NCBI GenBank assembly: GCA_021234155.1
Contig: JAJEKV010000100.1
Coordinates: 3,014,116 to 3,078,115, forward strand
Direction: 5' to 3'
Origin: Isoetes taiwanensis
Lineage: Eukaryota > Streptophyta > Lycopodiopsida > Isoetales > Isoetaceae
DNA length: 64,000 nt
Position 1 is the first letter of the stretch. Every line of letters starts with the position of its first letter. Shown piece after piece: positions 4,601 through 62,200 of the stretch. Position numbers and translations under genes: made by a program. Under the pieces are notes generated by a model. That model was not told the DNA's origin. It did no database searches and saw only the letters and a program-made list of their open reading frames with translations.

Positions 4601-7600
4601 CTACTCGCATTTGATTGCCCTGTAAATGTGGCGGACAAATAACAGTGATGCTCTATATCCAACTGCTCCAAGCATCAAGAAAAATCCATAACAGACACAG
4701 CCCATGTAACCAAAGAAGAATGATGTCTGCATCAAACCCGTCATATCGGATCTGGCATGATAATAATAGAAACAGTAGCCATAAATAAATAAGCCAGTCG
4801 AACCACCACAAAATACAGACCTGCAATCAAAATGGCAAATTAAATTTCTCAAACGCTCCTAATAAGATGTAGAGACTATAAAAATACTAACCGCCACCAC
4901 CAGGCATGATCTTCAACAGCCAGTTGAAAATAAGTGAGCGCAATGGTGATGAAGGCGGTAACTATTATGAGGATTATGAAAACAATAAAGAGAATACTGT
5001 ATATTGTATATATCTTATGTCCCCATACACTCGCAAAGATGTAATATAGCTCAATATAGATGGCACTAAACGGAAGAAAGCCAGCCATACACATCTGCAA
5101 CAAGACACTTTTAGTCAATATCACAAAAAAGCATTAAAGTTGAGTTCAGAAAAACAATCATGCAGATACCTGAGGAATGGTTTTACGATACCAAGGGAGT
5201 GCAGGTATTTCCCTAGGAAATTTGTTTGTCCTACAAGGAGCATAGAACTCGTTTTTATTGTTCTTTCCTGCTATGCCTCCAAGAACCTGTCACAATCAAT
5301 GGCGTAAAAAAAGCAAGATAAGATACATATTGATCCCTTTGTCTTCAAATTTGTGGCCAAGGATCTGAGAGGGAATCAGAACATGTTAAAAGCCATCTAT
5401 GCCATACCCGTGCCAATAAATTATTTAAATGGATAAGTGAATTAGTAAATTAGTATTCCAGTTTTCTTTGCTTCTCTCTTTCTGCTCTTGGATTTTTGAG
5501 ATTTTATACACTTTATGAGTAAGGCCTTAGCAATATTGGAAAATTTTATTTGACGAGCAACTGTATATCCATTGCTAGGGGGAAGGTTTTGAAGTTTATC
5601 TGGACAACTATATTATTCCTTGCACAAGCAATCTTAATGTAAAAAAACAGCAATACTTAGGTGTGTTTTAATTTGACTATATCTAACAACTCAAATCACA
5701 GCATTAGAATGAACATCTACTCCAGTTTTATTGCAGATTATATATTATGATATGTTACTAAATCGCCAAAGCTCACTTACAGTTAGAGGGAATGTGACAA
5801 GAGCCCAAATTATAGCGATGATGACAATCGTTCCAAAAGGTAATGCAGCTGTAGATCGGTAACCAATGGCAACAGTGTTGTTGAAGCAGAAGACCAAAAA
5901 TAAGGGTCCACAAAATAGTGAAGCTGTCAGCAATAGATTTCTTACCTGCATCCATATATTTCCCATTGAAAGCAAAAATACATTTGGATCCTTTTAGAAC
6001 AAAAGCCATAACATGATAAAAGATTTACCCAGTTTTCGCCACCCATCTGCCTATAAAGATGAGCAGAAACATATCCTGATATGCCAGCGGTAAGTGCATA
6101 TATGACAAGACATGCTGTATTCAATGCTCCTCTGTTATATGGATAAAATACGCCCACCAGCGAAAGGCCAAAGATGCACAGGACAAGAACAAGAAGTTGT
6201 GTCCCACTTCCAATAACTGCAGCAAACATGCTGCAAAAATGAAAGGATCCTGTCATCATCAAGCTTAGACGGCCGCAGAAGACTTGAAAACATGATGAAA
6301 AATCCTCAACTCTGTCCACTCTAAAGCACCCATTTAAAATTAATGCCATGATGCAACACACTACATTTTCCCAAATGCTTGGGAAACACCAATATTGTTA
6401 TGGCAAGTTAACATATAAAACCATGGAGAGAATGTGATGTCAAGAATGCAAGCAAACAGTTAAAAACTTAAAAGAGCCTGTGAAGATGAATGTAAAAGAC
6501 TATTTATGGGAAAATTATAGGACCAATCAAGTATTTAAAAGCTCCAAAACCTAGTATATCTTTTCAGATAATCTTACTTTGGATGAGGTGGGAATCGGAA
6601 TACATCTCCATGTATATATTTCCAACCTGTTTCCTCAGGATCCTCTTCTTCCTCTTTGGTGTATCTGAAATGATAAATGCAGCCAACTAAGTAACTCTCA
6701 GCCAACATATTGTCTCAAACATCATATTATGAGAATCAAAAAGACATAAAATGGACTTACTTAATAAAGTCATTTTTCAAGACACGCAGAAGGATTGTAG
6801 CCAAAAACCCTGTAAGCAGCAAGACTGTAACACAGGAGTTTATGATTGAAAACCAATGGATCTCCAAATGCTGCGGAAGGAAAGAGTATTTCTGATACTT
6901 TTCCATGCGCCGTTCAAATGGGATAGTTGTTTTCTGCCATTTTACAGAATAAGTGAAGTCCACCACCACAGGCTCGTCATCCGTAATGTCTACATGTTGT
7001 TCAGGATCTGTATGCCAAATGACCTCTATTACACGATCTTCATTATAATGCACTTCAAACACGGCATGAGTAAACAAGCGGTAATGATCTTCCTTTTGAT
7101 CCCTTACTACTTTGCCCACGAATCCCCAAAGAGGCAGGTCATCAAAAAACATCTGCAGGTTGTTCAAAGGTTCCATTATCATAATTGGGGAGAAATAGCT
7201 AACAGATAATATGAAATCTTAATTATGAAGACCATTTCTCTCTATCCAGAGATATCGACTAAGATGAGATAATTCATACTTCTGTAGCAGAAGCCAAATA
7301 CCCTTTTTTTGATGGATATCAGGATTAAATATGACAAATGTGCCACAAGCAGAAAAGAGTAAAGCTCTTAAGTGTCAAGTGAACTTAATATGGTGCTAAA
7401 TGGCAAGCTAGTTTTAGGCATCGCAGAAAATGGAAGACAACAGAAAATAAGACAACAATTCTAATTACTGTAAGCCCTTGGCCATACACGATATGCTGCT
7501 CCAAACCTCCCTCATTAACCAAAAACGCTAAAACAATTGAAAATGACTGGATCTGAATATGTTGAAGTTATCATAAAGATAGTATTTGCACTATTGAGGA

Positions 7601-9330: not shown

Positions 9331-9828
9331 GTCTGATGAATCCGTAAAAACCAGAGCCCAAGCGTGAACTTATGGATCATACAGGATCTTTCTGTTCTTT
9401 TTTCCTTTGGACTGAAAATACCTATACGGTCCTGTAGAAATACCTATGTGGTCTATACTATTAACAATGGTTGTTTTTCAAGTACTATATAATTCTCTAG
9501 AGGAGGCTCCCCATGAGCTTCCGGACCTCAAGTTTCCTGGCCACATACATAAGCAACACGTGTCATCCTCAGGCTTCGAAATCCCCAATAGCTCTAGCCA
9601 GATAATTTGCCGGTAAGTGTCTAGCACCACCGGATTTTGAATATAAACTCAAGATTATTCGCCGAATTTTGAAGGAAACCCCACAATTTGTTTGCCGGCA
9701 AATAAAAATTGGAACCGGAAAATAAGGATTATGACCGGAAATTTAGGAGACTAACTCCTAGTTTTTCGACGCTTGGTCATCCTGCTCTGAGTTCCAATGT
9801 GGTGATGACACATGGTGACTTTCATTGT

Positions 9829-9956
9829 CAGGAATGTTAAGTATTTTACTTGCATTCTGTTTCTACTTACATTCTGATTTTTTACAGACATTCCTAATTG
9901 CTTACTTGCATCCCTGATTTTTTACAGACATTCATGATTGCTTACTTGCATTCCAG
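9829..9956. repeat. Two-copy 40-bp tandem repeat
   Basis: The unit is roughly CATTCTGATTTTTTACAGACATTC.. followed by ATTGCTTACTTG, repeated at about 9873-9911 and 9912-9951 with few changes, then a third partial copy. The preceding TCAGGAATGT at 9829 recurs in the hairpin at 17.2 kb, on the other side of the recombinase remains. Confidence 0.5.
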
Positions 9957-11019
9957 ATTTACACTTTAAATACAAAGCTTGTTTGAAACAAATATAAAGT
10001 ATAATGAAATACAATACAGGATTACCATGTGGAACTTCAGCATTTTTTCCAAACTGCCCTTTATCGTAAGCATTAAGCTCATCCTTATAAACCTCTTCAA
10101 ACATCCTTCTAGATCCAGTTGCATCGAACGGCTTGCCAGCTATCTCCATTGCAGCCTTACTTGCAAATCTGCAGTTTTATCATACCTGAATATAGCAGAA
10201 CATGCAATTAATTGGGGAAGCTACACAAAAAAAGAAACATGACTAAAAATTTGTACAATAATTACCTTTGAAAGCCTCTACATTGCGATGTCCAGTAACA
10301 TTCATGCCAATATTAATGGGTACACCAGCTCGTGACAACATAGAAACTAGTGTTGTCCATCCACTCTTTCCACTGAAAGAGCCATCAACTCCTATAAGCT
10401 TTATCATGTACTTCAGCCATTGTGATATCTTTCGGCCACCAACCTTATGCTTTACATTATACCATGCCTGCAAAATTTAAAGAGTTTAAGTTTTAAAAAT
10501 TAAAGCTATATGAAATACAAAAAACAATTATTTACCGTTTTACGTGGTGAAATAATTGCCTACTTGAAATAGTTGCCTACTTGAAATACTTGCCTACTTG
10601 CTAGTAATGGCAAAAAAATTGTTTGAAGGTCACAATGCATCCGAAAGGATTCTTCTTGGTACCTGTCATCTGGCACCTTCAGACCTTCCAACTCCTCTTG
10701 ACCCCGAATCCCAAATCTAGATACGCAGTAAAACAATAGCCTCTTTTGCAGACCAACGGAATGTTGAATTCCATGGTCGACATCAGACAGAAGGGCCTGT
10801 TCGTTAGCGAATGTAATTTCATCTACTTTCTTCCTTTTTTTACACACCCCTGGTGTCATCCTCGATCTCCTCATAGAGGCAACACATGCAAGCCTTGCCC
10901 GCGTGAACACAACAGAATACTTAATATTGAAAGGAAATTCCTCTATGCCACTTTCTACAATCTTCTGCTCCTGCTCACGTAGAATCATGCATCCAAATCT
11001 TCTAAACAAGTCTTGAAGC
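9955..11019 (-). pseudogene. Tyrosine recombinase, Crypton/DUF3504 type, C-terminal catalytic part
   Basis: An exon with acceptor at 11020 runs to about 10610. It contains KKRKKVDEITFANEQALLSD and then RFGIRGQEELEGL, matching the first catalytic arginine box (LRG..EH..L) of Crypton-type recombinases. A second exon, 10467-10266, encodes 67 residues with WYNVKHKVGGRKISQWLK, a decayed HxxR box (FSGKSGWTTL), AGVP and TGHRNVEAFK. This is the same order as in KIAA1958, ZMYM and Crypton proteins, where tyrosine recombinases cut and rejoin DNA. In the HxxR box His and Arg appear as Lys and Trp. About 80 residues normally found between the boxes are missing. A further open piece (10149-9955; MEIAGKPFDATGSRR) follows, but its splice phase does not fit cleanly. 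The intron around 10556-10605 carries three copies of a roughly 20-bp repeat. It is most likely a decayed element or domesticated gene. Confidence 0.7.
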
Positions 11020-12527
11020 CTGCAAAAAAAATGTAAGAGATAATAAAAGAATGTCAAATGAATAAAAGAATGTCAAATGAATAAAGGAATGTAAACTAAA
11101 TAAAATAATATACTAAATAAACAAGGTGCTGCGCACGGAGGGTTGCCCTCCAGTTTCTTGAGGGTGAAGTGGCCTAAATCAAACCGTGAAGTCATGTTTT
11201 CACAATCTATATTTAAATTAAAGTAGACCCCTACCATGTTCTTACAATCAGTTTGTAGGTCCCCTACATTCATGTACAAGCCCGTCCAGTTCACTAGACG
11301 TTAATGAAAATACTATGAACCAAGAAAACCATGAACCACCACTTTACTTTGGAGCAGAGAAGACTATGCTAACTGCCACAAGAATATAGTTATCAAACAT
11401 GGCCATGTGGATGGTGGTAATTTCTTGCAAGCCTTTGCTTTGTAGTATTTTATGTTTAAGAAAATAAAGATTCCTTTCTTGGAGATGGCTTTTGATGACA
11501 ATCTGAAGATTTATTTGGCGAGCAGTAAAATCTTCCCTTCGGAAAATATAAAGCTAATGGCTAAATTCTCCACTCAATACTGGTCCTTCAATTCAGTTAT
11601 ACAACACCTTGACAGTGGTGCACAATTGAACATTGCATGAAAACCTTGGTAGAAATGGTTATGTCTAGATGCACGACTATTGCATTGCTTATTCAGGATT
11701 TGTTTGGGGAACTCAAACGAAGTAGCCACTACTCTCTTAAGTCCTACCCGATTAAAATGAAATATCGAGCCTATGGTAATCATAATAGAATCCAGGATTT
11801 GACTATCATTTGTATCTTGCACCAAGTCCTACAGGATTAAATAAAATATCAAGCTCATGGTAATCACAATAGAATCCAGGATTTGGCTATCATTTTGAAT
11901 CAAGTATTAAATATCAGCTCTCATTTCATAGAAGACGTTTTTGCATGTGTTTTTTCAATGCAGAAAGTGATAGCTAGATTACTAAGTGGCATAAAATTGA
12001 CCAACTTTCAGGACTATTAATGAGTGGATGTTTGTGCATGCAAATAACTGAGTGCTTGCAAGATCCAAATATAGGTTTCGCATTCAAAATACAAAGAATT
12101 ATCATGTAATAACCTAGAGAGAATTTTGGACTAGAATTATATAGCAAATAATTGTAATACTAGCTAACATATACATATATATATACATATGGACGAAATT
12201 TACTTCAAAGTAAGCATCTGTATTAGTCCTTTTCAAGCATATCATGAAAGATAAACACATATCCAGTGCCCTTTGCCTCCAATTCATCAAAACACATTAC
12301 AGTTAATACAAACAAACAAATGCAAAAGACAGGTATTATATTGGAGGTTAAACATCACATCTGGCAAGCTTTCTAGCATGATCCCATTTCTTAATCCAGA
12401 ACCATTGACAATGGGAACTCCATAGATGTTTTTGCTTCCGGCAGTATCTGCATCCCACAAAATATCTCAATAATAGCAACAAAATTCCTTTTTTTTTCAT
12501 TTTGCATTCTATTGCCTTCTCGGCCGA
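11020..12527. other. Intron-like or inserted DNA between recombinase halves
   Basis: 11045-11110 is a minisatellite-like tract of (AAAAGAATGTCAAATGAAT)-type units that resembles the tract at 15.5-15.97 kb. The rest holds only short open frames with no motif I recognise. A near-duplicate sentence, AATCCTACAGGATT-flanked with 'CAAATCCTGGATTC' type words, occurs around 11750-11900. No gene supported. Confidence 0.35.
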
Positions 12528-12698
12528 TAGGAATAGAAGCAAAAAGCCTCGCATGTGAACTAGGGTGACTGATAGTTTAAGAGCGCAAGTGGGTTTGGAT
12601 CAGTTTTTGAAATATCTCAAGCATATACCAGCATATCCAAGGAATATGCCAAAAACCCACATGGACTAAGGTTTGCCCCCCTAGGGGCAACCCAAAAA
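12528..12698 (+). repeat. 171-bp direct repeat, copy 1
   Basis: Begins TAGGAATAGAAGCAAAAAGC and ends TAGGGGCAACCCAAAAA. About 92% identical to 15321-15491, in the same orientation. The end carries a near-palindrome GCCCCCCTAGGGGC. There are no tRNA-type A/B boxes, so a SINE is not supported. The two copies enclose the receptor-kinase pseudogene. Confidence 0.75.
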
Positions 12699-13309
12699 AG
12701 GGATAAAGAAATGGCAGCAGGACAGAAAGAAAACAGATCTGACAGAAGGTGGCGGCAAGACAGAAATATTATATATGTGTCTCTTGGGCTAATGGCCTCT
12801 ATATTATTAGCAGTCCAAATGCGACAGCGCTAGATCATGTTTCCATTTTACATCTAAGTTAGTAAACTGGTCAAGCAATTATAGCATGTGGGGTCGGTGT
12901 GTTGAATATTGTCGATCCAAACGGATTTGCCAAATCCACTGCAGATCAAGCAAGAAATTTGAAAGGAACTTCTGGGCAGGTCACGAAAGAAAAACGAAGA
13001 TCTGATGCAGAAAACCAACAAGCAGATTCAAACTCTCTGGCAGAAAACCAACAGGGAAAATTCAAATTCTAAGATTTGTGGAGTCAGTAAAATTGGTCGT
13101 GTGCTTGTTGGTACATTATACCATAGATCCTAGAGTTATCTCGATACTGACATATAAGGATACACAATAACACAAGGAAAGCGTTTTGGATTTATAACAT
13201 TGGATTCGGATCCACTTTTGCTACTAGATCACTGCCTACCATAGCTACATGGTCTTAATAGTGAGGATACTCACAATCAGAATTTTGACACATTTCAAGT
13301 GCTTTCATT

Positions 13310-14810
13310 TTATTCCAATTCTTGTGGCAAATGTAGAAATGGAATGGAGCCCTTGAGCATTAGATAGACATCTTTCATTTTGGGCCTCAATGTAGGTGAA
13401 GCTTGGGTGCACATTATGGCAATTTTGGCCATGTCTGTTGCTTCTTGCTCACTATATTCGTTCCTTAGTCGTTTATCTATAATTTTATGTAGATTTATCA
13501 TTGTGAAAAACGTCTTGTACCCATATTGTTAGAATAATTTCTTCTGATGGCAGTTCCAATTGCATGGGCCGTCTTCCAGTCAGGAGCTCCAGCAAAACCA
13601 CCCCAAAGCTGTAGACATCCACCTTGTCTGATAGCCTAAAATGCATTGCATACTCTACATATGAAGTTCCAAATTCTTAGAAAATTTGCAACCATACCAT
13701 AACCTCTCACCAAGAAAAAGTACTCACCTGGAGCAAGATACCCTGTTGTGCCTCGAGTATTAGTTGCAGTAACATGGGATTTGTTGCCTTGGTGGAAGGT
13801 AGCAAGCCCGAAGTCACAAATTCGAGAATTGTAATCAGCATCAAGGAGAATATTTCCAGGTTTTATATCACAATGGATCACACAAACCTTTGACTCTTCA
13901 TGAAGGTATGCTAGGCCACAAGCAGCACCAATTGCAACATTTTTTCTCACTTCCCAGGACAGTATGGGACCATCCCGTTCTTTAACGAACAACTGCTCAG
14001 TTAAGCTTTCATTAGGCATATAATCACAAACCAACAGCTAAGCTTTTGAAGTGAGACAATATCCACGTATGTTAACAAGATTCTTGTGTTGCAACATGCA
14101 GAGAATAGTAACTTCTTTCGCAAAGTTTTGCATAGTACTCTTAGTTGTTTCAGATAGGCATTTGAAAGCCAGTATACTTCCATCGCACAACACGCCTCTA
14201 TACACCCCTCCATATCCCCCTTTGCCAAGCTTCTGCTTTTCGCTGAAGCCATTTGTGGCTTCATGAAGTTCTCTACAGGTATAGACTACAGGGCCAACCT
14301 TTGATAGAAGCCATAGATTGGCTGATGTGGGGATCTTTTAGATACAATGTGCCGCCACCACAACCATAACTCTATTAGAGCTAGCATTATAGCAGCAATA
14401 ATGCCTCCAACTATGCCTCCTATCATTGCTGTTTTATGTTGGTGTTTGTGTTTGGGGACATCAAAAAGGGAAATGGAAGAAATGCCTGAGATAACAGGTC
14501 CTGCCTTCTCACTCGAGGCGGTTACCCAAGTATCAATTGTACCTCCCCAGAGTTCGATTGAAAGAATGCCACTGCTTACTGCAACATTTGTCTCAAATGT
14601 ATAAGGAGAGTTTTTATTTTTTGCTTCAATAAACACATCTAGCTTTTGCTTTACTAATTTCCCTCGAGCATAAACATCAAAGGCTCTTGCTTCACTAGTA
14701 GAGAACACAGGTTCTAAGAAATGCAAAGTGATTCTATACATACCTGACTGCAGTTGAGTGCCATGGTATGCAAAAAGTTTAGCTGCTGCGTGAACCTTTA
14801 GAGAATAGTA
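13310..14810 (-). pseudogene. Malectin-domain receptor-like kinase pseudogene
   Basis: Reading on the minus strand: a partial malectin domain (about 14806-14480: YHGTQLQSGMYRITLHF, then RAFDVYARGKLV), a transmembrane helix (MIGGIVGGIIAAIMLALIE, about 14420-14365) and a Ser/Thr kinase domain. The kinase has a glycine loop GKGGYGGVY, a lysine in LAFK, a catalytic loop HCDIKPGNILLD (non-RD), DFGLA, and APE split by an intron (13728 to 13654), then the C-lobe to ELE at 13313. Family members sense cell-wall or other outside signals at the plasma membrane. Damage: an in-frame TAG at 14038-14040 (SKA*LLVCDYM), a one-base frame change near 13,500 (VQDVFHND to KIIDKRL), and a possible third frame change between transmembrane helix and kinase near 14,285. 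The extracellular N terminus is missing. With two or three lesions I call it a pseudogene. Confidence 0.8.
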
Positions 14811-15320
14811 TTGATATCAGCATAGGCTGTAAAGAAGGAGAGCAAGAAACATATCAATAAAATGTAAGGAAATTTCATTGCACTAAGAACAACTCAACAC
14901 TGAGGCCTTTATCTAAATAAATGAGACAGGCTGCCCTTGTGCCTTTGAAATACATTTCTAATGTGAGGTTTACATAGTCCAGATTCATGCGTGTTCCTGC
15001 TCTTCTTCTTCTTCTTCTTAGTTGTCAAATACTTTTCTAATGTGAGGTTTACTTAGTCCAGATTCATGCATGTTCGTGTTGTTCTTCTGCATATCAAAGA
15101 AGGAGCAAACATCAAATTCCAGCAAGCCTTCCAGCATCAAATCTATTTCCAATCCTCTCGAATATCTTGGCCAAAACCTTAAAGTATGAAGTCTTGAGGC
15201 GTGTATATGCATTGGTTTATTTCACAGAACATATGGCCGATGGAAAGGAAAGAAGCTCGATCTAAGAGCCTTCAAACTTCGTCAAACCAGCAGATCTGGA
15301 AGCCATGTTCCGGTCACCGG

Positions 15321-15491
15321 TAGGAATAGAAGCAAAAAGCCTCGCACATGAACTAGGGTAACCGACAGTTTAAGGGCGCTAGTGGGTTTTGAGCAGTTTT
15401 TGGAATATCTCAAGCATATACCAGCATATCCAAGGAACATGTCGAAAACCCACATGGACCAAGGTTTGCCCCCCTAGGGGCAACCCAAAAA
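15321..15491 (+). repeat. 171-bp direct repeat, copy 2
   Basis: Same unit and orientation as 12528-12698, differing at about 14 positions. It is followed at once by the AATGTAACTAAA-type minisatellite tract. Confidence 0.75.
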
Positions 15492-15980
15492 TGTAACTAA
15501 AGAATGTAGGTAAATAAAAGAATGCTAAAGAATGTAACTAAATAAATGAATGTAACTAAAGAAAAGCATATACTAGAAAATATAACTAAAGGAATGTAAG
15601 GGTAAAAGCATGCTACGGTGTACCACTTTTGGAACCCTCAAAAGTACCTACACTGGGTACTTTTAAAACTAGTACTTTTTGTTTTTTCTTTCCATTAAAA
15701 TCAATCGAAATTTTTTGAATTGAGGACATGTCAATCTATAGTACTAGAGGATATCAATACTATTAAAGACTAAAATAAATGAATTAACTCTCAAACTTAT
15801 TGTTTATTGCGGCATTTATGCCAGTTCCCAGTACCCAGTGCTGGGTACTTTTCTGGGTAGTTTTGCACTCCCTAAAAAGTACTTTAGATGGTACACCCTA
15901 GCATGCTTTCACCCGTAACTAAATAAAAGAATGTACTGAATAAACGTCAATGTCAACTAAAGAATATAATAAAACATCTA
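15492..15980. repeat. AATGTAACTAAA-rich minisatellite tract, split by a MITE
   Basis: Irregular repeats of GAATGTAACTAAATAAA run from 15492 to 15599, are interrupted by the MITE at 15600-15914, and resume to about 15980. A similar tract lies at 11045-11110 beside the other half of the recombinase gene. This suggests both tracts belonged to one intron. Confidence 0.5.
15600..15914 (-). mobile_element. MITE, 315 bp, 4-bp target duplication (copy 1)
   Basis: The ends are GGGTAAAAGCATGCTACGG (left) and the complement of TAGCATGCTTTCACCC (right), a terminal inverted repeat of about 25 bp. It is flanked by GTAA on both sides (15596-15599 and 15915-15918). No coding capacity. The copy at 31694-31993 is in the opposite orientation and has a different duplicated 4-mer, which confirms the borders. 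A 4-bp duplication fits few superfamilies (Sola or Chapaev among those known). I cannot assign one. Confidence 0.85.
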
Positions 15981-15984
15981 ACTA

Positions 15985-16345
15985 CAACATGTTAACTTTC
16001 GTTTCAGGAGGATACATCGATCCATCTAGCTTCACAACTTGAAGCATAAACAGCTCCAACATGCTGGCAAACTCTTTCAAATCGAGTTCCTCAATTTTCT
16101 TATCAACAAGAATATTCACATGAACCCTTCAACAGTCTCAGACTTGCTAATGCCTCCGCTACGAACTTCTTGCAGCAAATCATTATCGATTTCCAAAAAA
16201 AGAACTGCTGGCTGTTTTCCAAAATTCTCTTTCTTGCTTTCACATGGAACTAGCACACTTAGATGCCCATTACATTCTGTTTTTTCAATATATGTTGTAA
16301 TTGCATCATCAGAAAACTCAGCTTCAAAGCTAGCGTCTTCATCCT
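15985..16345 (-). pseudogene. Crypton-type recombinase, N-terminal SAM-like domain
   Basis: After an acceptor (CTGCAG at about 16346) the minus strand reads ...GKQPAVLFLEIDNDLLQEV.. and, one frame over, VDKKIEELDLKEFASMLELF followed by QVVKLDGSMYPPETK. The words 'fxxxVxxxDGxxYpPxT' are the hallmark of the helical domain that precedes the catalytic domain in DUF3504/Crypton proteins. The frame changes once near 16,120. The catalytic part lies at 11019 and below on the same strand, so the two pieces are collinear but about 5 kb apart. An open segment at 16567-16364 (RGWIMGFPLIFLVNALCYM) may be an upstream exon, but I do not recognise it. Confidence 0.55.
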
Positions 16346-17196
16346 GCAGGTTAGTTATATCACTTAAACAGAAATTTCAGAACTGCAAGCTGCTTGAGAG
16401 ATGTGTAGATCAAAGCTTGGAGTCGAATCCATGCCTGCAAGCCTCCAGGCAGCATTCTCAGCATCTCCAATCATATAACATAATGCATTAACAAGAAAAA
16501 TTAGAGGGAATCCCATGATCCAACCTCTACAATGTCTAAGCACTAGTTTCTTCACCCTGTGTAACAAAAAAGACGAGTAAGAACCTATACAAGCATATAA
16601 TGAATAAAAGAACAGAATATTAAGAAACTAGTTTTTGGAATGTTAAGCATTCACCTTGTAAATACAGAATATCGGACCTAAGAACCTAAGATCATATACA
16701 AGAACAAAAAATTAACACGCAGGAACATAAGATCTATGAAAGAAACATAACATCTAAAACAAATTGAACTTTTTATCTTCTAAAGCCTGAATGTGCCCTA
16801 AGATTTGTCTTCCCATCAATCTTTGGTAAAAAATACAAGCCACAGGATCTTCCAACGACTGAAAATACATAAGATTTGCAAGAATTACAAACAAGTGAGT
16901 TAATAGCAAAATTTAGGGGCCAGAATAGAATAAAAACCAAGAAAAGATCCAAGCAGTCAAACCTGAGCAAAATGTCCACAAAAAGCTTTGGAATGCTACA
17001 AAAATGATGGCGCCAGCAAAATAAATGCAAGCAAGATGCTTGCAGACCTCGAATGCCTTCGGCGCGCCATGAAAAGCTTTGGCAACAGTTCATCTTCGCA
17101 GCCAAAAGGAGGCAAGAGAAATTTTTGGCGAAAAGGAAAACAGAGCATTTTTTGGACGGCCACGTTGGATGACACGTCAGTGTCGTCCACGTTACG

Positions 17197-17273
17197 GGAA
17201 TGTCTTTTTAGTAGACATTCCTGAACACGTCGCCCTTTTTCCACTTCAGGAATGTCTACTAACAAGACATTCC
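17197..17273. repeat. 29-bp near-perfect inverted repeat (hairpin)
   Basis: Arms 17197-17225 and 17245-17273 pair with one mismatch around a 19-base loop. Each arm is itself a smaller palindrome (GAATGTC...GACATTC). It lies upstream of the recombinase remains. Its TTCAGGAATGT word is shared with 9829. It could be an element end, a recombinase-binding site or a small-RNA hairpin. Confidence 0.6.
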
Positions 17274-18599
17274 TGTATACAGAAGGTGCCCCATTCCGAT
17301 GAACCAAAGAGCTCATTCCTCTTGCATGAAGGGAAGACAAAATCCAATAAAGAGATAAAAGCATCTACTGCAGTAAGGGTGGATGTACATTGCTCTGTTG
17401 TTCTGAATTCTAGAGTTTGCCATGTTAGCCAAACCTAGACGCTAACTCGACAACCATCCCTATTACCAACCCAAAGCCCGAAATCTTGAAGACTGCAAGA
17501 CCAAATGGATGCAATTGCAAGCTATAAGATAAAGCCAGACAAACTTGAATTTTTAGATGCCTTCTACCCATCCAATTTTTTTGAGGTTGCCCATGCCATG
17601 CAGGATGAACTTTGACAGAGGGAAGGTAATGGGAATGTTCTTTTTCGTTCTTGCCTTGCCACATGGCAAGGTCAGAGAGAGATAATTGCCTAACAAAGAT
17701 GTGCCCCAACCAACAAGAAGGTAAGAAAAATGCAAGAAGAAACAGTTATAGGCTTGCAAGTACTTGTCTTGTATGTCAAAAACATGAGTTCCTCAAGGTG
17801 GGCCACTATAAGAGGATGGGGGTACCGTGTCAACCCTTGTGTCAAGACATTAGCGTAGTGACAACATTGTGATGGTTGCTACTTTCTTGACACAAAATGC
17901 TTCTCTTGTATCAGAATTGTGTCATAGGATACAGTGTCAAATATCTTGTCGAAATAATGACAACTTTTTGTCAAGGTTGTATTGCATTTTAAGTGCATTG
18001 TTACAACAACTTTTAAATAACATTGTAGCTAAGTTGTACAATTTTTTCTTAAGACTTATAACAAAATTTCATTTAGTTTTGTGTCTAATATTTAAACAAA
18101 TTTTTTTGTGGACCATTTGCATATCTTTATAATACCATTGTATTCAAATTTTATATAAATTTTGCATCTATGCTAGAGGGGGAAGGACACGCATTCCTTT
18201 TTTTGTCATTTTAGCTTAAAAAACGAAAGTGAAGGGTAAGATTTATTTTTATTTTTATTTTTTTGGTATGTATATGGATTAGTATATTACTAACGCTGGC
18301 AGGTCTGCTGTGGGCATGAGCTTTTCCTTTGAATTCCTTTAGCAGAAGCATGCATCATTCGTAATGTTTGTTTGCGGATGTCTCTTAGCGACTAAGGAGC
18401 AGGAGCCAGGCTCTTTTCTTTGGGATTTTTAAAACTTTCCACTCTACAAATAAGCAGTTCAAGATCCTGCCTGTTGGTGCTAAACTGGCAAACAACTGGC
18501 TCACAGGGCATAACCGGTAAACGAATACCTTTTGAGCTCCGGATCTACAAAATCGGCAAATAGTTGGTCAGAGGGGAGGGCTTTGGTGAGGCCGATCTG

Positions 18600-31693: not shown

Positions 31694-31993
31694 GGGTGGA
31701 AGCATGCTAGGGTGTACCATCTAAAGTGCTTTTTAAGGAGTGCGAAACTGGGTACTGGGAACTTGTATACATGCGGCAATAAAAAATAAGTTTGAAAGTT
31801 AATTCATTTATTTTAGTCTCTAATAGTATTATTATCTTTTACTACTATAGGTTGGCATGTTATTGATCTTCAATTCAAACATTTCCGATTGATTTTAATG
31901 GAAAGAAAAGATAGAAAGTACCAGTTTTAAAAGTACCTAGTGTAGGTACATTTGAGGGTTCCAAAAGTGGTACACCGTAGCATGCTTTTACCC
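31694..31993 (+). mobile_element. MITE, 300 bp, 4-bp target duplication (copy 2)
   Basis: Same family as 15600-15914 in inverted orientation: GGGTGGAAGCATGCTAGGG at the left, complement of the GGGTAAAAGCATGCTACGG end at the right. It is flanked by GCAA on both sides (31690-31693 and 31994-31997). Non-coding. Confidence 0.85.
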
Positions 31994-35300: not shown

Positions 35301-38300
35301 CGGAGGCACCATCCACGTCCATGACTATTTCACGTGCTGAGCCATACCCAAACATAGCAGCTGAACTGGAGCTCCTCAAGGAAGTTTCGACCTCTATGCC
35401 CGGGAACCAACACCCTTAGATCCTGCAGATCCTTTAGCCCGTGTTCCCTTGGAGATGCAAGAAGAATTCGTGAATATTAAAACCCCCCTCAGTCTTCCTA
35501 CCATTCTGTTGTAAGTTGTGTCCTGCTCTTCGAAAATAGTTGCCCTTACCAACTGTTCTTGTTGGTGCTATGGCAACTTCCATGCCCACGGTTCATGCTA
35601 CTGTTGGGAATCAGCAAGTCAATCATGTACATATTGATGGGGGCAGTGCTGTCAATCTCATCACGGACAAACTCAAGAAACAACTCGGCATCAACCAACT
35701 GTATCGTGCACCTTATGATATCAAGCTGGCAAACGGTTACATCATGCGCCCTCAAGGTGTTACTCCGCCACTTCAAATCAACATTGGAGATCTCACATTC
35801 CCATTGGAATTTCTCGTCTGGAAAATAGGGGAAGATCCTGGTGACTATGAAATGCTGGTCGGACGATCTTTTCTTTGCCAATTGGGCCACTGATCAATTT
35901 GTCATTACTGATGGTCACTTGAATACCACCATGGATCTTGAAACTGGGCAACTCATTGCTGTTCAAAATGTTGAACCTTTGCTCTTTGATAGTGACTCTG
36001 AAGACATACAAAACATCTATCAAGTCCAAGCCCCCGATGTTGGTTTGCCACTGTCATTCTATCCTGAATATGTTGTTCCCTGGGGCGATATGAATCTAGA
36101 TATGACCACGGAGTTGCTGCCTTGATTAGTCCTGATCTCGCGCTTTGCAATCGGATTCAGCGTATTGATGCCTTTCATGATCCGACGCCCCTCACCCCAT
36201 TGTGGATGTCGCAGCTGTCATGACGCAACCCTTGCTTGACAAGGATGACTCAGAGTACCAATCCACCTGTTCTTCTGCATCCATCTGCTCACACTATAAT
36301 GGATACTGATGTTATTCCACACGTTCAAACTCCGAAAGTTGAAATCATTGACTTAGGAGACAACCAACCCATCCAGTTGACCGCAAATCTTCCAAAACCA
36401 TGTAAAACTCGTGCGCTAAGTCTTTTCAAGAAATTCACATATTTTCGCGTGGAGCTATAAAAATTTATGAGGCATTAAGAAGAAGTTGGAGGAACTCGTC
36501 ATTCTTACCAAACTTGACGCACGCCCGGCTAGCAACGACAATACAGGCACAATCCCAACTATCGTGATATGATCAAAGCAGAAATTGTTAAACTTTTTGC
36601 TGATGGTCTTATTTATGAGGTCAAACATTCTGAGTAGGTGAGCCCCATTGTTATTGCCCTTAAGCATAATGGGAAAATTTGTGTTTGCGTGTGGACTATC
36701 AAAAACTCAACTTGGCCACGGAACGTGATCATTTCTCGCTACCCTTCACGGATCAAGTCCTTGAAGAAATAGCAAGCCACGAAATGTACTCATTCATGGA
36801 TGGCTTTTCTGGCTACAATCAAATTCAATTTGCCCTAAAGGTCAATTGAAAACTATCTTCACCATGCCATGGGGCACTTTTGCTTATAAAATGGTGCCTT
36901 TTGGCTTGTCCAACTCACCTTCAACTTTCCAGCACATTATGCTTTCTATTTTCAGGATTACATGAAAGATAATACTTTTTTGCAAGTCTTTCAAGATGAC
37001 TTTTCTACCTTACAGCACCATTAACGATCATCTCTCCAAACTTGAGCTGGTCTTTCAAAAATGTGACGAATCGGGCATCAGTTTGAATCTAGATAAGTGT
37101 ACTTTTTGTGTCACTTCAAGAGTTCTTTTGGGCCATGTGGTCAGCAAATGCGGAATTACCACGAACCCTGCCAAGATCAGCTGTGATCTCAAGGCTCAGG
37201 CGCCTACCAATATTAAGGAGACACAATCCTTCCTTGGTAAAGTCAATTACAATGCTACTTTCATTCCAGGTTTGGCTGGCATTGCTGATCCCATTCACAA
37301 ACTCACGGGCGATGAATCCACTTGGGTTTGGAATCTCAAGGTAGATGAGGCCTTTCAAAAATTGAAAGTTTTGCTTACTGCGGAGATAACATGGCACGAA
37401 AAATCCTCTTGGCCAGATATTTTTGGCCCACGTTGTTCAAAGACGCTCACGCTCATGCACGCCAATGTGACATATGCCGGCGCGTTGGACGACCCACGCC
37501 ACGTGATGCTCTCCCATTAACTCCAGTTGCCACTCCTCTACATTTCAGCAAATGGGGGATGGATTTTGTTAGGTCCATTGACCCACCTGCTCGTACTCTT
37601 GTGCTCGCTACATTCTTATCCTCATAGATTATGCCACCAAGTGGGTTGAAGCTTGTGCGTTACCTGATAACATTGTAGCTAGCATGTCACGGGTGCTCTA
37701 CACGCAAGTCATTACACGTTTCGGCTGTCCCATGGAACTTGTGAGTGACCGGAGTGTTCATTTTGTCAATCACACGATCAAGGAACTTATGGAATACTTG
37801 TATATTCATCATCGAAAGAGCACGCCATACTATCCACAAGGCAATGGTCTTGTTGAGAATACCAACAAGACTCTAATCGACATTCTAAAGAAAATTTGTG
37901 ATGCTTCCAAAAAAGATTGGCAGGAAAAGTTACCAACTGTTTTGTGGGCCTATAACACCACTTACAAAATTGCCACAGGGCAGGCACCTTTCAGACTAGT
38001 TTATGGCCAAGAAGCCTTGATGCCTTTTGAGTTTATTCTGCCTACTCTAAGATTTCAACTAGCTATGTTCATGATCCTCTTGCTGCTTTACAGGAAAGGG
38101 TTTATCAGTTACAACTTGATGAACTTCATAAGAATGCCTATCTCTAGGTTCTTGCTAGCCAAAAATTGCAAAAATCATGACATGACATGACAACCAGATC
38201 CAAACAAAAACTTTCAACACAGAAGATTTAGTTCTTTTCTATGACTCGAGATACAAGAATTTTCCTGGCAAACTCAAATTCCATTAGCTTGGCCCTTACA

Positions 38301-40735: not shown

Positions 40736-41299
40736 TAACAACAGAGATTTGAACTGTTAGGTTATGAGAAGCGTAACGGGAGAAGGCAGAGATGGAAACA
40801 GAAAATGAGAGACGAGAGGCTCTGACATTCAAAACAATGTGCTCATTTGCTAAGCCGTGATAAAGGGCAAATACAAAGAATTTGTTGTTCATTTTTTATC
40901 AATCGTTCCAATTTAGTTTAGCTCAGCCTTATCTTTCTCCTGTTCATCGGTCATCTGAGATTCATCTCGTCATATCATACATAATAGAAGAGTCAGTATG
41001 AAGTAAGAACGGAAGCAGATATGTCTATCACACTCGTACAATCCTCGTTCACCTGCGGGATACGGAGATGGAACAAAGATAGATGAGATAGATGTTAACA
41101 AAAAGAATAATTTATCTTGGCTTGGAGTCCATCAGAATAATTTGCCACTATTTTGTCGATACCAGCGAAAAGAAATGAACAACACTAAAACAACCATTGT
41201 TTAAAGCAGTTGTGTTGTTGGGGGACTACCTTCTTATCTTTTGGCCTACTGAAACAGAATGCTAGCTCTCCGAAGCGAGCGAAGGCACGGTCCACCTTC

Positions 41300-41705
41300 C
41301 GCTGAATGTTATGTTGAAAGGGGGGATAGATGGGGCGATTCAAGTGAGATCCATGGGGATTTGACCTTCCATTCACTCGTGGGATCCGGGCGGTCCAGGG
41401 GGGGGCCAGTCATTTATGGCTCCTCTCTTCCTGAACCCTTATCAGTGTATGGATAGCTATCTCTCGAGCACAGGTTTCAACCAAGATGTGAAAAATGGAG
41501 CATCTAATAACGCATCGCATCTTCATGGACCAGGAACTACGAGATTACCCACGGAAGTCTTTCATTCCGGGGTGACGGAGGGATCGGATCGTATCATTTG
41601 AGCTATTTCCCGCTTCTTCCCCTGCCTGTCTGGGGGAAACAACAATCAATATTATCTTCCGGAGGGCCTAGAAGACCGGATCCAACCAAGGGCACACTCC
41701 CTGGT
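41300..41705 (+). pseudogene. Plastid trnI-GAU intron / ycf68 fragment
   Basis: Frames on the plus strand read FHSLVGSGRSRGG, GSSLPEPLSVYG, STGFNQDV, GPGTTRLPTEVFH and WGKQQSILSSGGPRRPDPTK. These match the ycf68 reading frame inside the plastid trnI-GAU intron (rRNA operon of the inverted repeat). The frames are not joined into one, as is common for ycf68. A nuclear plastid insertion within the organelle mosaic. Confidence 0.8.
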
Positions 41706-42336
41706 TGGTATGGTATTCAACTCTCTCAGTCACCACAAATGGTCTCTGGTGTATGGTCAAGTACCATATACAGCCACAACCCACAAGTTTACAACTATTG
41801 CCAAACCTTATGAGGCTTTTGTTAAGTTTTTTGGAGAATATTTTATGGTTACTCTGTTAAGAACACACACATCAACAAGCACTTCTTTCATACTGCCATT
41901 GCGGCTATTCATTTCACCAGCTTTGTCGATTGGCCACAAATTCTGTTCCAACGTCTTCTAGAAGAAGTCGACCGCATTCGCCAAGCTCCCGGCTCGGGCC
42001 CTGATTTGGCTATGGGTGCACATTTTCAGACTATTATTCAGCAATGCCTTCCAGAGCCTAGTAAGATCTCCACTCGGCAATTGGATGTCACCTCCCATGC
42101 TTTCAGTCGGACATATTCTGTCATTTATCATGTCCGAGAACTTCAAGCGGAAACCTCTCGCCCTCATCCCCAGACCTCTCGACCCCATGATGCTCACACT
42201 GAAGACCACAATTAGCATAGTCCATGTCTCCATCCTGCCGCTTTGAGGCCTTCTGGCCCTAAAACCGTTCAGCTTTTCTATCCATGCCCTCAATTCTGTC
42301 GCCCTTCTTCGAGGAAGAACACAAAAATCCAAATAG
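41706..42336 (+). other. Unassigned open region next to the organelle mosaic
   Basis: A plus frame is open from about 41,870 to 42,215 (words such as FVDWPQILFQRLLEEVDRI and AMGAHFQTIIQQCLPEP). It has no start or splice site I trust and matches no family I know. The LINE at 42.34 kb interrupts whatever followed. It may be a gag-like or host fragment. Confidence 0.25.
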
Positions 42337-43330
42337 TTTTTTTTTTTTGAAGGACTTGAGCCTTTATTATCCAGAGAAAGTTACAGAGTACAATGGGGAC
42401 TAATAACTCAGTGGAGAGAATGTCCACCAGAGCAAAACCACCCCACTCAAATACAACATCTAAACAATATGAAGAGTAAGCAAAAACTCATAAGTAAGTA
42501 TGAATCTGAAGATAATGCTCCCAAATACGGCTCTTCACCTCATTAGCAATTGATGAGCACCTGAATGCTTTGACAATTCGTTGTTGGGCATCAAGAAGGA
42601 TCTGTGCATCTGAACAAGCAAGACCTTTGAATATAAGAAGATTCCTTCTTTTCCAAATGGACCAAATGATCCATGCAGAAGCCAAATGAAATGCCCTTTT
42701 TGCCAAATTGTCCCAACTACTTGGATAGACTGCTAATAACACCTGTTGGCTATTCAAATTGCAATGAAAGAGGCCTTGAAGCCACAGCCAAGCATGTCTG
42801 ACATGTCTACATAGGAAGAAGTAATGCTCAATTGTCTCGTCCCTTTGTGCACATAAGGGACAAAGTGCAGATATCTCTGGACGAAATCTTTGCACCAGAA
42901 TATTAACGCGCAGACAACGATGAATGACTTTGGGATGGAGTAGTTTATCCCATACCCATTTCCATACTGCTTTCTGCCGATCCCTAGGAATGAACAAAGG
43001 CCACTTGGACGAAGGAGGCAAGACGTCCGCAACAAGCAAGACCTTGTACATGGAATTCACCAACTTATCAGCTTTGACATGCTCATGAACTACCCAAGGC
43101 TGGGGGTCATCCACTTGTGCTACTGGAGGAAGAATTGAAGACACCTTCTGCCAAATAGCTCGATCCCACCTTAAAAGGAGGAACTTAGCTCTAAACTCTT
43201 CCCATATCAGCAACTGCCTTTGATTATTATACCAATCAGATATGGTATACACACCTGCTGCTCTCCATTGACGCTGCGTCAATGGGTGAACTGAAGATAC
43301 CAGGGGACCACCGTCCAATGGAATCCACCA
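42337..43330 (-). mobile_element. L1-type LINE 3' end, 5'-truncated
   Basis: A poly(A) tail (T-run 42337-42348) is followed by a 276-codon frame, 43318-42488. It ends in a reverse-transcriptase zinc-binding domain: HPKVIHRCLRVNILVQRF, then CPLCAQRDETIEHYFFLC (CxxC..H..C intact) and IIWSIWKRRNLLIFKG. This is the C terminus of plant L1-clade ORF2. The endonuclease and reverse transcriptase are absent, so the copy was truncated at insertion. The surviving frame is uninterrupted, suggesting a fairly young copy. It differs from the LINE at 58.7-64 kb. Confidence 0.85.
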
Positions 43331-44235
43331 ACAACTTGCAGCAGTGCTAGTGTGCGCAAGATGGTGAAAATGAAACAGAGATTGTTACAGTCTCCCATGC
43401 AACTAGCAATCCTCTAAGAAATGGAGACGCATTAGGATATGCGGTCAGTGGATAGTTTGAAGCCTTCTGGTGTGACATTGAGTGCTTAGGCTTCATTTTT
43501 CGTTTGCTTATTACCTCCCATTTAACAAAACCACTCTGTCATGGGGCCAGCAGCAAGATTTTCATTTTATTTTCATCATTGGGTTTGACATCGTCTTTCT
43601 TGGCTCTTGAGAGTTTACTCCATGGGTTCTACTTGAATATTTATAATTCTCTTTTTCTAGGATCGGTCTATACTCTCACAATTAATTTTCTTTGTTCTTA
43701 TATTCGTGATTTCAGGACATTGAGTTACCTACTTTCAAATTTCGCCTTGCTGCATTAGCCTTGTTTCTAAATACTTGTAGCAACAAATTTTTGCCTCCTA
43801 AGCCATGTTTAGCTTGCTTTACCAAGTTTTTTGGCTTTCAATTAAGCAGTTTTTAGCATGATTTAGGATCAGATGTCAATTCTACAACTATATTTATCAA
43901 ATAATTTTCCAGATTCGGTTTTGCAGCTTTAAATGCATAGGTAGCTTTGCAGATGTCGTCTCTACAACCACATTTATCAGACAGTTTTCTAGATTTGGTT
44001 TTGTAGCATTGAGTTCTGGGGGATGCACTTAGTTATAAGGGGGTATGGACATCTGCGTTCGAAGGGTGGCCAAAAACATTCCTAGTATATCGATCTCTAG
44101 AAGCTAATTTAACCCCTAAAGTATGTATTTGGCCCCAGATAATAGTGAAATGAAATGGTAAAAAAAAAAAACCTTTTATTGCATGTACATGTCCCATACT
44201 GCAAACAATACTGAATCCCTCGGGCATTGAGTGCT
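43331..44235. other. Spacer between two truncated LINEs
   Basis: AT-rich. A short imperfect repeat (GATTTGGTTTTGTAGC and GATTCGGTTTTGCAGC) occurs near 43,910 and 43,993. The 84-codon frame at 43504-43758 is hydrophobic and unrecognised. No gene supported. Confidence 0.3.
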
Positions 44236-44905
44236 TAGAATAGAATAGAATAGAATAGAATAGAATAGAATAGAATAGAATAGAATAGGTTTTTAGCGTC
44301 CACGGAGACCAATTGGCCCATGGGACCCAAACAAAAAAAGAGAGCAGCAAGCATATTACTGACAGGATTAAAAAACCCCCGCCCCAAAGGGTTTTCGAGG
44401 GAAAAACCTTAGCAGTAATAAGCATGCTGGCACACTGTACAATTGCATAGGACAGTTCAATGCCGTCCCGCAGGACACAAACGAGCACGTGCATCCATAA
44501 CCTCCTGGAGGTACGACCCCAACAAACCCACTGACGCCGTAGTCAATAACTGATGCAACGGCTGGCCAGGCACTAGTAATCGAACATATCGCTCTCGGAT
44601 ATGGGCAAATCTTTGAAGCAGATCCGGAGGGCATGACATTCATCCTCAATCGCTACCGGGTGGCAACACCGCAAAACCTTTGCTCGTGCTTCCCGGCCCA
44701 ATGCCCCGCTTTCAATCGAGGCGATGTGCCCTCGTCGCGAATGGAAGCTATAAGTCCGGCTTCTTCATGGGTAGCCGGGTGTACAAAATCGTGTGGGCCT
44801 CTTGTGAGCCTAGGATTGACTTGCTCTTGATAGTGTGCCCACGACAACATGTGTCGAGCCTCTGCAACCAAAGCTGCGAAGGAAAGTAGCATCAAAGGTA
44901 TACTT
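44236..44905 (-). mobile_element. Truncated second copy of the GC-rich LINE
   Basis: The minus strand carries VNPRLTRGPHDFVHPATHEE, matching VNPMLTRGPHHYLAHPSTHE in the 22.4-27.6 kb LINE. It then has the same C/G hairpin (44372-44404) and the word GGTCTCCGTGGACG near the end. The 3' end is a perfect run of about ten GAATA units at 44238-44288. Only the last 0.65 kb is present (5'-truncated). Confidence 0.85.
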
Positions 44906-59296: not shown

Positions 59297-62200
59297 TCAA
59301 ATATGAATACCGAAAATCTCTTCAATCCAATTAATATCATATTTAGTTTGCTCGATGATAGCCTGAGGCCATATAATCTCCTCTTTGAAAATCAGGGAGT
59401 TCCTTCCCTTCCACATTCTCCAGAGGAGAAGATAGATGCGCCAATTTGATGGGTTTTCAGGAAGAAAAAAATCCATGGGGCTCATAGTCCTAAGATTGGG
59501 CATATTTAGCTCAGTCTCTGCTAACTCCAGAGTCCATTCGGCCCATAAATAGTTTCTGAACAGATGATTCTCATCTTCCTGGGCCTGCATACATCGCACA
59601 CAAATGTTAGAGTCCGCCATGTTCATCCTCCATCTCTTCATATTTGTTGCAAGAGCTTTATGCCATAGCTGCCACATAAAGGCTTTGACTTTTGGGTGGA
59701 TAGGGCACTTCCATAGAAAGATAAGGTTCCTTTTGATCCTCAAGGGATCAGTATTCCACTTGGTATGGATCGTTATGTCTTGATCTTTATTCAGGAATTT
59801 ATAGGCCAATTTAACTTTGTAACCAATGAACCCGTTTATGTGCCACGAGTCTTCTGAATGGTGCCACTGACCACTAGCAAGTCTCTGAGTAATACTATTG
59901 AAAAGTGTTTCAGACTCCTCTCCCAGATCACTTAGGACCGAGGTATGATAGTCGAAATTGTAAATAATGTCTCTGATTAACACAATTCCCCTGTTAGTCC
60001 ATTGCTTAGTAAGGGTAGGAAAATGAGAAGCGGGATCATCCAGAATAAGAGAAGGACTCCAGAAGATTGGTTGATCCTGAGAAAGGCCCTCCTTCCAAGT
60101 ATACATTCCTTTGACCTTGAGCCACGCCCTGATCCACTTTTTTATAATCAGTGGGGTAGAATTCGGGATAGTGAAAGGAAAGAAAATACTATAGGGAAGG
60201 TGCATCTTAAGCCCTCTCCATCCAAAAGGATGGCATCTCCCAATGTAATGTTTGATCAGAGCTTTGACCGGATGGTTAATCTGATCTGTACAGGCCCTGT
60301 AGAAGTATTTAGCAGCTAGAGCAGTTGCTTGCTTCTCAATGTTAATAACTCCCAAACCTCCCATGCCTTTGGTTTTACAACACTCATTCATGGAGACTGG
60401 AATCCAGCATCTTCTGTTAGTTCCTCCTGCAATGAATCTACCTATAATACTTTGCATTTTAGAATAGACCTTTTTAGGGGCCATAATAATAGATGACTGA
60501 TAAACCTGAGAAGAGGAAATAACAGAGTTTGCCAGAATGGCCCTACCATTCTTAGAGAGGAATTTAGAGTTGAGGGAGTCCACCTTCCTGTAGAATTTGT
60601 CCAAGAGATCCCCCCACAGGTCACTCGCGTTCACCCTAATAGCATAGGGGATCCCCAAGATTTTGGTTTTGGTGGTAGGAGAGAGATACATACAACCAAG
60701 AGATACATCTGCTTGCTCCCCTTTGGTCTGATCCCTTGAAATCAGCTTTGTCTTGGTCGGATTGATGTTGCAACCGGAACACCTTCCAAAATCCTCAAGA
60801 ATCTGCTGTGTAGTTTGAATAAATTGATTGTCCAGATCCATAAAAAGAAAGGTATCATCTGCAAAATGAATATTAAGAATATCCTCCATCTCTTGATTAG
60901 GAGGGAGTTTGAGTCCTTTAACCTCATTGAGATTCCTAAGTTTTTGGAAATTACTGTGCAGACCTTCCATGAATATTAGAAACAAGAAGGGTGCCAGAGG
61001 GCATCCTTGCTTAACTCCTCTTTTTATATCAAAGAAGGGACTGCACTCTCCATTGATTAGGACAGCCGATCTTGAGTTTTTTAGAATAGCCATGAAAATA
61101 GAAATTACCTCTTCCGAGAATCCTAAGCTCCGGCTGCATTCTTGTAAAAATTTCCAGCTTACCGTGTCGAAGGCTTTGGTGATGTCCAATTTCAGAAGCC
61201 CTATGTTTTGTTTACTTTCTTTAGCCCAGCTGATCCCTAAAGATGCTGCTGCAACATTGTCCAAGATATATCTCCCTTTCAAATAGGCACTTTGAGTTTT
61301 ACTTATGATGTCATCAAGAATAGGCTTGACTCTATCTGCAATTGAACCTGAAATAAGCTTATAGACCACATTAGACAGTGAGATAGGCCTGTAATCTGAA
61401 AAAGAAATAGGCATGTCATTTTTTGGGATGAGAGCAATAAGGCTAGTGTTGATCCTGCAATCCAAACTTCTGGTTAGTAGGAATTCATTAGCAATGGAAA
61501 CCATAAAGTTACCCAAAAGCCCCCATGCCTTCTTGAAGAATTCAGCAGGGAGGCCATCCGGTCCAGGAGTTTTGCCATTCTCCATTTCATTGAGCACTTT
61601 GAAAATCTCTTCATTGTTGAAAGGTCTAGACATGCTGCTGTTCATGGCATTAGTAACTCGGGCCTGAATATCAATGAAGTTATATATGTCTTGAGAGTTT
61701 GTATCCCTGATAGTACCCATAATTCTGACAAAGTGCTCTTTAGCAGCCTCTTTGAGTTGATTATCTTCAACAATATTATTTCCTTCCCAAAGGACACTAT
61801 AAATGTGATTTTTCTTAATCCTTCCTTTGGCCTTAATGAAAAAGTATTTGGAGTTAGCCCTCTCATCTTCCTTAAGCTCTTTAACTTTGGCTTTAATCTT
61901 CCAACCCTTTGCAATCTTGATTTCTTCCCTTTCAATCTGAATTTTAAGATCCTCCTTATTCTGACCTTGAGCTGTCCCGTACTGATTTCTCAACTCTTGT
62001 AGGTAAATAGTCTCTTTCTGATAGATCTCCTTCCCCCATACTTTTAACCAATTCTTTATATTTATCGAGGTCCTAACCCACCAATCCATCCACCCGATAT
62101 CATTACTAGGCTTATCTTCCATGTCCAGTATCTGAGCTAACTTGGCAAGGAAATCCTCATGATCCAACAGATTAGTATTAAGCTTAAAATAGGAATTCCT

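Follow-up and report, generated by a model that had tools for sequence, protein, structure and literature searches.

A decayed copy of a probable multi-copy transposon with a DUF3504-type tyrosine recombinase in the quillwort Isoetes taiwanensis

Among the mobile elements that carry a tyrosine recombinase (YR), the retroelements DIRS, Ngaro and VIPER have repeated ends, and Cryptons are thought to bring their ends together and to move without duplicating the target; we know of no Cryptons noted for inverted repeats. Passages of the survey by Kojima and Jurka (2011; PMC3212892) list Cryptons from animals, fungi, oomycetes and a diatom and describe terminal direct repeats of 5-6 bp, and the green organisms that appear in them are Chlamydomonas, in a tree legend, and one mitochondrial candidate from a green alga. 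The ALOG domain is derived from DIRS1-type elements, according to passages of PMC3537659. Here we describe a stretch of 64,000 nucleotides from the quillwort Isoetes taiwanensis (contig JAJEKV010000100.1, positions 3,014,116 to 3,078,115 of the forward strand; hereafter the window), which we believe, with a probability of about 0.8, holds the decayed remains of one member of a multi-copy DNA transposon family, with a YR of the DUF3504 type as the sole protein recognised in it. We read the element as Crypton-like and its YR as of the DUF3504 kind; in this reading movement is inferred and the strict Crypton label is unproven.

The copy lies on the minus strand at positions 9776-17285 of the window, from its 5' palindromic end (17285) to the last shared base at its 3' side (9776), later insertions included; these limits were set by DNA matches to loci L028, L033, L027, L030 and L031 and by end motifs (L numbers denote loci and C numbers contigs of the same genome). 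This insertion of about 7.5 kb carries one gene of four minus-strand exons. Exon 1 (15986-16343, exact limits inferred) encodes an acidic N-terminal region and an N-terminal SAM-like part (..KKIEELDL..DGSMYPPET), contains one internal frame break and is matched by exon 1 of L051 (E 7e-14). Exon 2 (10590-11018) holds the end of the N-terminal domain and the Arg of box I (RFGIRGQEEL), and its catalytic core is partly deleted, residues 1-156 of the L047 core query matching it with a gap of 26 residues (E 2e-45). Exon 3 (10267-10467, E 8e-20) contains WYNVKHKVGG, box II (KSGW, for KSGR in the family), AGVP and TGHR, and exon 4 (10027-10185), which matches the tail of L047 (E 2e-8), carries the position of the catalytic Tyr (YDKT in the family) and a conserved tail, with its frame broken near the start. 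These four matches fall in the correct order along the window.

The initial annotation had proposed a Crypton/DUF3504-type recombinase at 9955-16345, and all of its motifs that were looked for were located on the minus strand, as it had said (KLDGSM 16032-16015, YPPETK 16014-15997, RFGIRG 10718-10701, VKHKVGG 10455-10435, AGVPIN 10329-10312 and TGHRN 10296-10282). Its range was too narrow for the broken copy, which spans about 9776-17285, and the exon that it took for the last is the last but one, because the catalytic Tyr position lies in a further exon at about 10185-10027. The damage to the window copy comprises the frame break in exon 1, the loss of about 26 residues after box I and of a further stretch before exon 3, the loss of the box II Arg, a frame break adjoining the Tyr in exon 4 and a damaged 3' end; this copy is a pseudogene, no longer able to make the enzyme. 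We rejected the idea that exon 1 is a fragment unconnected with exons 2-4, because the order of these exons is unchanged in other copies, where only a short intron 1 separates the first two (about 0.1-0.2 kb in L027, L028, L030, L031, L041 and L051).

For comparison with DUF3504 we used two DUF3504-like yardstick sequences, K and Z, which were not taken from database records but score like true members of the family (3.5e-18 and 8.7e-40 with PF12012) and also match PF00589 and PF25561 (QRICH1). When an unfiltered profile of the two yardsticks was searched against the 2068 stop-to-stop pieces of the window with at least 20 residues, the three pieces named in the initial annotation ranked at the top (E 1.3e-6, 0.0016 and 0.0029), and the next piece had an E value of 7.2. 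In tests with 2000 shuffles each, exon 3 alone reached 81 against Z, where no shuffle exceeded 49, and 66 against K, where none exceeded 52, and together with the first residues of exon 4 from another frame it scored 103 with Z (best shuffle 45). The N-terminal piece joined over its frame break scored 66 with Z (best shuffle 47) and 41 with K, a score equalled by 12 of the 2000 shuffles; exon 2 was significant with K (1/2000) and not significant with Z (177/2000). Because the yardsticks did not come from database records, this comparison is a lead, short of proof.

Relatives of the window copy were sought in the whole genome (1,658,258,908 bases on 1110 contigs). A search with the 67 residues of exon 3 gave 940 candidates, and all of the 150 that were scored matched, with identities of 48-100% and E values of at most 1.6e-16; a stop falls within exon 3 in 21 of these 150 rows and in none of the other 129, as counted by eye. 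Examples of contigs bearing copies are C1018 (44.6 Mb) and C1034 (34.7 Mb). Some copies lie within long open frames of up to 531 residues; L051 has exon 1 and the core, and its tail lies in another open piece, and in L028, which is closely related to the window copy, all four exons are open within one 3.4-kb copy. Searches of viral contigs with the window protein and of viral and prokaryote genome contigs with the family profile, pattern-seeded and of limited reach, revealed no relative, and three DNA patterns of DUF3504 motifs gave 17 loci in viral contigs, none of them DUF3504-like by eye.

These relatives connect the family with DUF3504. In L028, for which 10 of the 22 pieces of at least 60 residues were scanned with Pfam, exon 2 matched PF12012 (E 0.028, 14.9 bits) and exon 3 matched PF00589 (E 0.0018, 18.5 bits); PF25561 had no match in these ten pieces or in the seven family pieces scanned. 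The PF12012 profile, whose curated cut-off is 29.7 bits, exceeded that cut-off at two places only in the genome, on C31 and C606 (33.4 and 31 bits). The gene on C606 has eight open pieces that we read as exons, the first five of which, when joined, score 31.0 bits with PF12012 and 2.5e-5 with PF00589. The family profile aligned with the joined C606 protein (hhalign E 8e-12) and with yardstick Z (E 9e-9 over 224 columns), the latter alignment reaching the GH(R) motif from the end of the N-terminal domain and taking in box I, the hairpin Lys and box II. The family can be aligned with a DUF3504 member over most of its core. When the exons of the C606 gene, a relative detected independently by the PF12012 profile, were compared with the window at E <= 0.01, they matched it at two places only, with E values of 0.002 for exon 1 and 6e-5 for box I. 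The proposal that a land plant carries a DUF3504/Crypton-type tyrosine recombinase is upheld through relatives and not through the window copy: the profile search that the initial annotation had suggested, with DUF3504 and phage-integrase models, was negative for the window copy, which is decayed and has lost part of the core, and gave matches in relatives from this genome, above the PF12012 cut-off at C31 and C606 and below the cut-offs in the main family.

A second DUF3504 lineage, less closely related, is found at C606:37216-40377 and 41295-44486 (L020 and L022) and at 88.9-91.9 kb of C31 (L021), with other intron positions and a tail rich in glycine and asparagine. The C606 pair is a convergent inverted duplication with one open and one broken copy. 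Beside the DUF3504 gene of C31, at 77014-87277, lies a tandem array with a unit of about 2.95 kb, the copies of which are 93% identical.

Active-site residues were compared in 26 loci (L026-L051), comprising the 20 best matches and six loci selected because their frames are long. In 22 of them box I could be located, with its Arg in 21 and the hairpin Lys in 20 of the 22. At box II, Lys stands in place of His in 26/26 loci and the Arg is present in 24, being lost in the window and in L027; the active-site His is present in 20 loci, and the Tyr opens the last exon in 24. Lys in place of the box II His is tolerated in some YRs. From this comparison of sequences, the tyrosine recombinase active site (R, hairpin K, KxxR, H, Y) is mostly kept. 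The initial annotation had looked to several plant copies with an intact R..HxxR..Y, and the copies are indeed numerous, with the residues mostly kept, except that the box II His is Lys. A box II that is degenerate by ancestry was considered and ruled out, given the Arg in 24/26 loci and Lys as the family state. Exon 3 had a median ratio of nonsynonymous to synonymous substitution rates (dN/dS) of 0.084 in 63 pairs without the window copy and of 0.19 in the 11 pairs that include it; these values come from 19 of 20 loci and 74 of 171 pairs, the other pairs having been excluded for a dS outside 0.05-2 or for lack of a value, and the pairs are non-independent. By this measure exon 3 is under strong constraint. 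The branch L046-L051 has TGQR for TGHR and long open frames, and its enzyme is possibly altered or non-catalytic.

The family also has dispersed copies with defined ends. L036, L037, L038, L039, L040 and L045 lie on six contigs and are 86-98% alike over their matching parts, and for three of them (L036, L038 and L045, on C179, C1051 and C1086) the identity along some 3.4 kb is 94-97%, dispersed copies measuring about 3.3-3.4 kb. Five of the six share the 3' end GGATGACACCTAAGTGTC(G/A)TTTACG(T), beyond which the flanks are unrelated, and L038 stops slightly short of it. In the subfamily of the window copy, L027, L028, L030 and L033 retain an intact 3' end, whereas that of L031 is short and that of the window copy is damaged, its 3' terminal region (9776-9860, minus strand) sharing sequence only as far as 9776, short of the intact end in other copies; in both groups together, 9 of the 12 copies inspected have an intact 3' end. 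A sharp 5' end was seen in L036, L038 and L045, L045 starting two bases later.

The 5' end of the element carries ACGTGGACGACACTNANGTGTCATCC. Among the 5' ends of seven copies, AGGAATG-spacer-CATTCCT occurs twice, as a foldback, in L028, L033, L038 and the window, and once in L036. The foldback of the window copy (17193-17280, minus strand) is an inverted repeat of two palindromes AGGAATGTC-N9-GACATTCC, placed face to face with a short spacer between them, a layout that is the same at the 5' ends of L028, L033 and L038. This outer site is present twice in the window, which amounts to four matches on both strands with at most two mismatches, versus 0.02 expected. After the foldback comes an inner palindromic site, ACGACACTGACGTGTCATCC (17167-17186, minus strand; one match, with 3 of 100 shuffles having one), which is the inverted counterpart of the family 3' end over 26 bases.

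No target-site duplication of fixed length was found in the three copies with both ends (L028, L033 and L036), a small sample with junctions set by hand, and the 15-bp flanks of these copies share at most 3-4 bp. GT recurs on the 5' side of the junctions in all three, and CGT adjoins both junctions in L036; elsewhere, shared strings stand at unmatched offsets or at distant places. In the joined copy of L028, at about 970-1100, the 5' flank and part of the foldback are tandemly repeated, an arrangement that may record a failed or repeated recombination event. Among the origins offered by the initial annotation, which included a plant Crypton lineage, a transferred element and a domesticated host gene, we favour a multi-copy mobile lineage because of the 150 scored copies, the dispersed copies with sharp ends and the mostly kept active site.

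Several results weigh against this reading. The window pieces, single or joined, had no DUF3504 or phage-integrase match in Pfam, and neither the joined window protein nor the family profile found a relative among PDB sequences; single-sequence structure models of window exons 2 and 3 had mean pLDDT (predicted local distance difference test) values of 35 and 52, an unusable fold. Both matches of L028 are below the cut-offs, and nothing else was found at E <= 1 in the ten pieces scanned. Of the seven main-family pieces, four (L046, L047, L048 and the L051 core) reached 14.1-16.5 bits, below the PF12012 cut-off, one had PF00589 at 15.4 bits and two had neither family, PF12012 giving no match for L049, L050 and L051 exon 1; nor did the genome search with PF12012 give a match above the cut-off in the window or the main family. 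The alignments of the family with Z and with C606 end before the Tyr, and the active-site His is replaced by Gln in six loci (L046-L051). As regards the ends, the 5' ends of L027 and L045 are incomplete, as are several ends in the sample, L037, L039 and L040 have only the 3' half in common with L036, with unrelated upstream sequence, and the ends carry an imperfect inverted repeat of 26 bp (about 85-92%). Two further Pfam matches of the exon pieces, DUF3960 and Sec63, were weak and unrelated and were taken as chance.

The inverted repeat bears on the alternative that survives best, in which the element is a terminal inverted repeat (TIR) or foldback transposon of the DDE type that has captured a passenger YR gene and in which the YR is not the mover. 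With 26-bp repeats at both ends and a foldback 5' end, the element does resemble TIR elements; nevertheless, we consider a captured passenger unlikely, because a fixed-length target-site duplication is lacking in 3/3 copies with both ends, the seven family pieces and the ten L028 pieces scanned contain no DDE domain, and the YR exon is strongly constrained with its active site mostly kept. The palindromes would also fit recombinase sites.

The introns, the low dN/dS and the long acidic N-terminal region would suit a large family of host genes that arose from an ancient YR, like ZMYM, QRICH1 and KIAA1958 of animals, and that has left many pseudogenes, and the Gln for His in 6/26 loci fits a non-catalytic role for part of the family. 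We regard such an origin as improbable, more so than a captured passenger, since host genes would not account for dispersed copies with sharp ends and unrelated flanks and 97% identity across contigs, and since most loci have the active-site residues, whereas DUF3504 genes mostly lack them, as stated in passages of PMC3212892. Contamination by non-plant sequence or a chance likeness with no real homology is very improbable, although the window copy has no Pfam recombinase match, because the contigs that bear copies are long, a malectin-kinase receptor and an EMP70 piece are present in the window too, the searches of viral and prokaryote contigs, limited in reach, gave no relative, and chance is excluded by the ranking of the yardstick profile, the C606 matches and the ordered exon matches of L051 and L047.

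For a mobile YR lineage of the DUF3504 kind, we propose the following mechanism. The YR would be made from spliced mRNA and would bind the palindromic end sites, with paired arms around a spacer; it would then cut and rejoin DNA via a phosphotyrosine link, and the element would thereby move, probably via an excised circle, without target-site duplication. The window copy would have inserted in this way in the past and would subsequently have taken an insert bearing a receptor kinase and a miniature inverted-repeat transposable element (MITE) into intron 1. More tentatively, at somewhat less than even odds, the family may represent a large superfamily of land-plant DNA transposons with a YR that was mobile until recently and stands apart from CryptonF, S, A and I, with a KxxR active site, with paired palindromic or foldback ends as recombination sites, with hundreds of copies in a lycophyte genome and with side lineages, marked by Gln for His and by long open frames, that are heading toward host use.

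Neither of the later insertions in intron 1 belongs to the element proper. The larger one (11122-15486, minus strand, limits approximate) measures 4.4 kb and contains malectin/kinase receptor pieces at 13310-14816, which are bracketed by a 190-bp direct repeat (12524-12713 and 15317-15506, 88%). The MITE-like repeat (15597-15917) has inverted ends of 29 bp; this repeat of about 0.3 kb recurs at 31694-31993 of the window and inside the transposon copy L031. Elsewhere in the window, a long interspersed nuclear element at 59300-62941 on the minus strand combines an endonuclease, a reverse transcriptase and a zf-RVT domain in one open frame of more than 1200 residues, an EMP70 gene piece lies at 6760-7218 on the minus strand, and a retroelement integrase piece lies at 37582-38187 on the plus strand.

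Among the matches listed in a search of the open-access literature, there was no description of a Crypton in a land plant. Excerpts of a review of plant genomes mention Cryptons in general terms (PMC11630846), and a repeat table for Dracaena contains 24 'Crypton' fragments with 1,719 bases in total (PMC6294377), entries that are most likely automatic labels. The paper on the Isoetes genome gives 37% transposable elements, and the word Crypton is absent from its main text (PMC8566536). With a family as large as this, in which the active site is mostly kept and the ends are defined, the range of this transposon class would come to include vascular plants; the family would also be a possible origin, within plants, of DNA-binding proteins derived from a YR, and its defined end sites would make the mechanism of transposition testable.

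Compared with known systems, the quillwort family shares the tyrosine recombinase lineage and repeated ends with the YR retroelements DIRS, Ngaro and VIPER and differs from them in that no reverse transcriptase was found in the family pieces scanned; in the window, where a selection of open reading frames was examined, the reverse transcriptase matches found all lie outside 9776-17285. ALOG, according to passages of PMC3537659, corresponds to no more than the N-terminal part, which binds DNA, of a different YR lineage, unlike the quillwort family. With the animal genes ZMYM2/3/4, QRICH1, KIAA1958 and WOC, the family has in common a two-part layout, as represented in the yardsticks, in which an N-terminal part (PF25561, QRICH1, in the yardsticks) is followed by a YR-like core; passages of PMC3212892 state that the animal DUF3504 genes lack most catalytic residues, whereas the quillwort family mostly keeps them and has numerous copies that look mobile. 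The family departs from Cryptons in its land-plant host, in the box II Lys for His in 26/26 loci, in its 5' foldback and inverted palindromic ends and in the lack of a clear terminal direct repeat of 5-6 bp, with only GT or CGT recurring at the junctions. Like Cryptons (CryptonF, S, A and I), it is a DNA element with no reverse transcriptase in the pieces scanned (seven family pieces and 10/22 of L028), in which the recognised protein is a YR with a core related to DUF3504.

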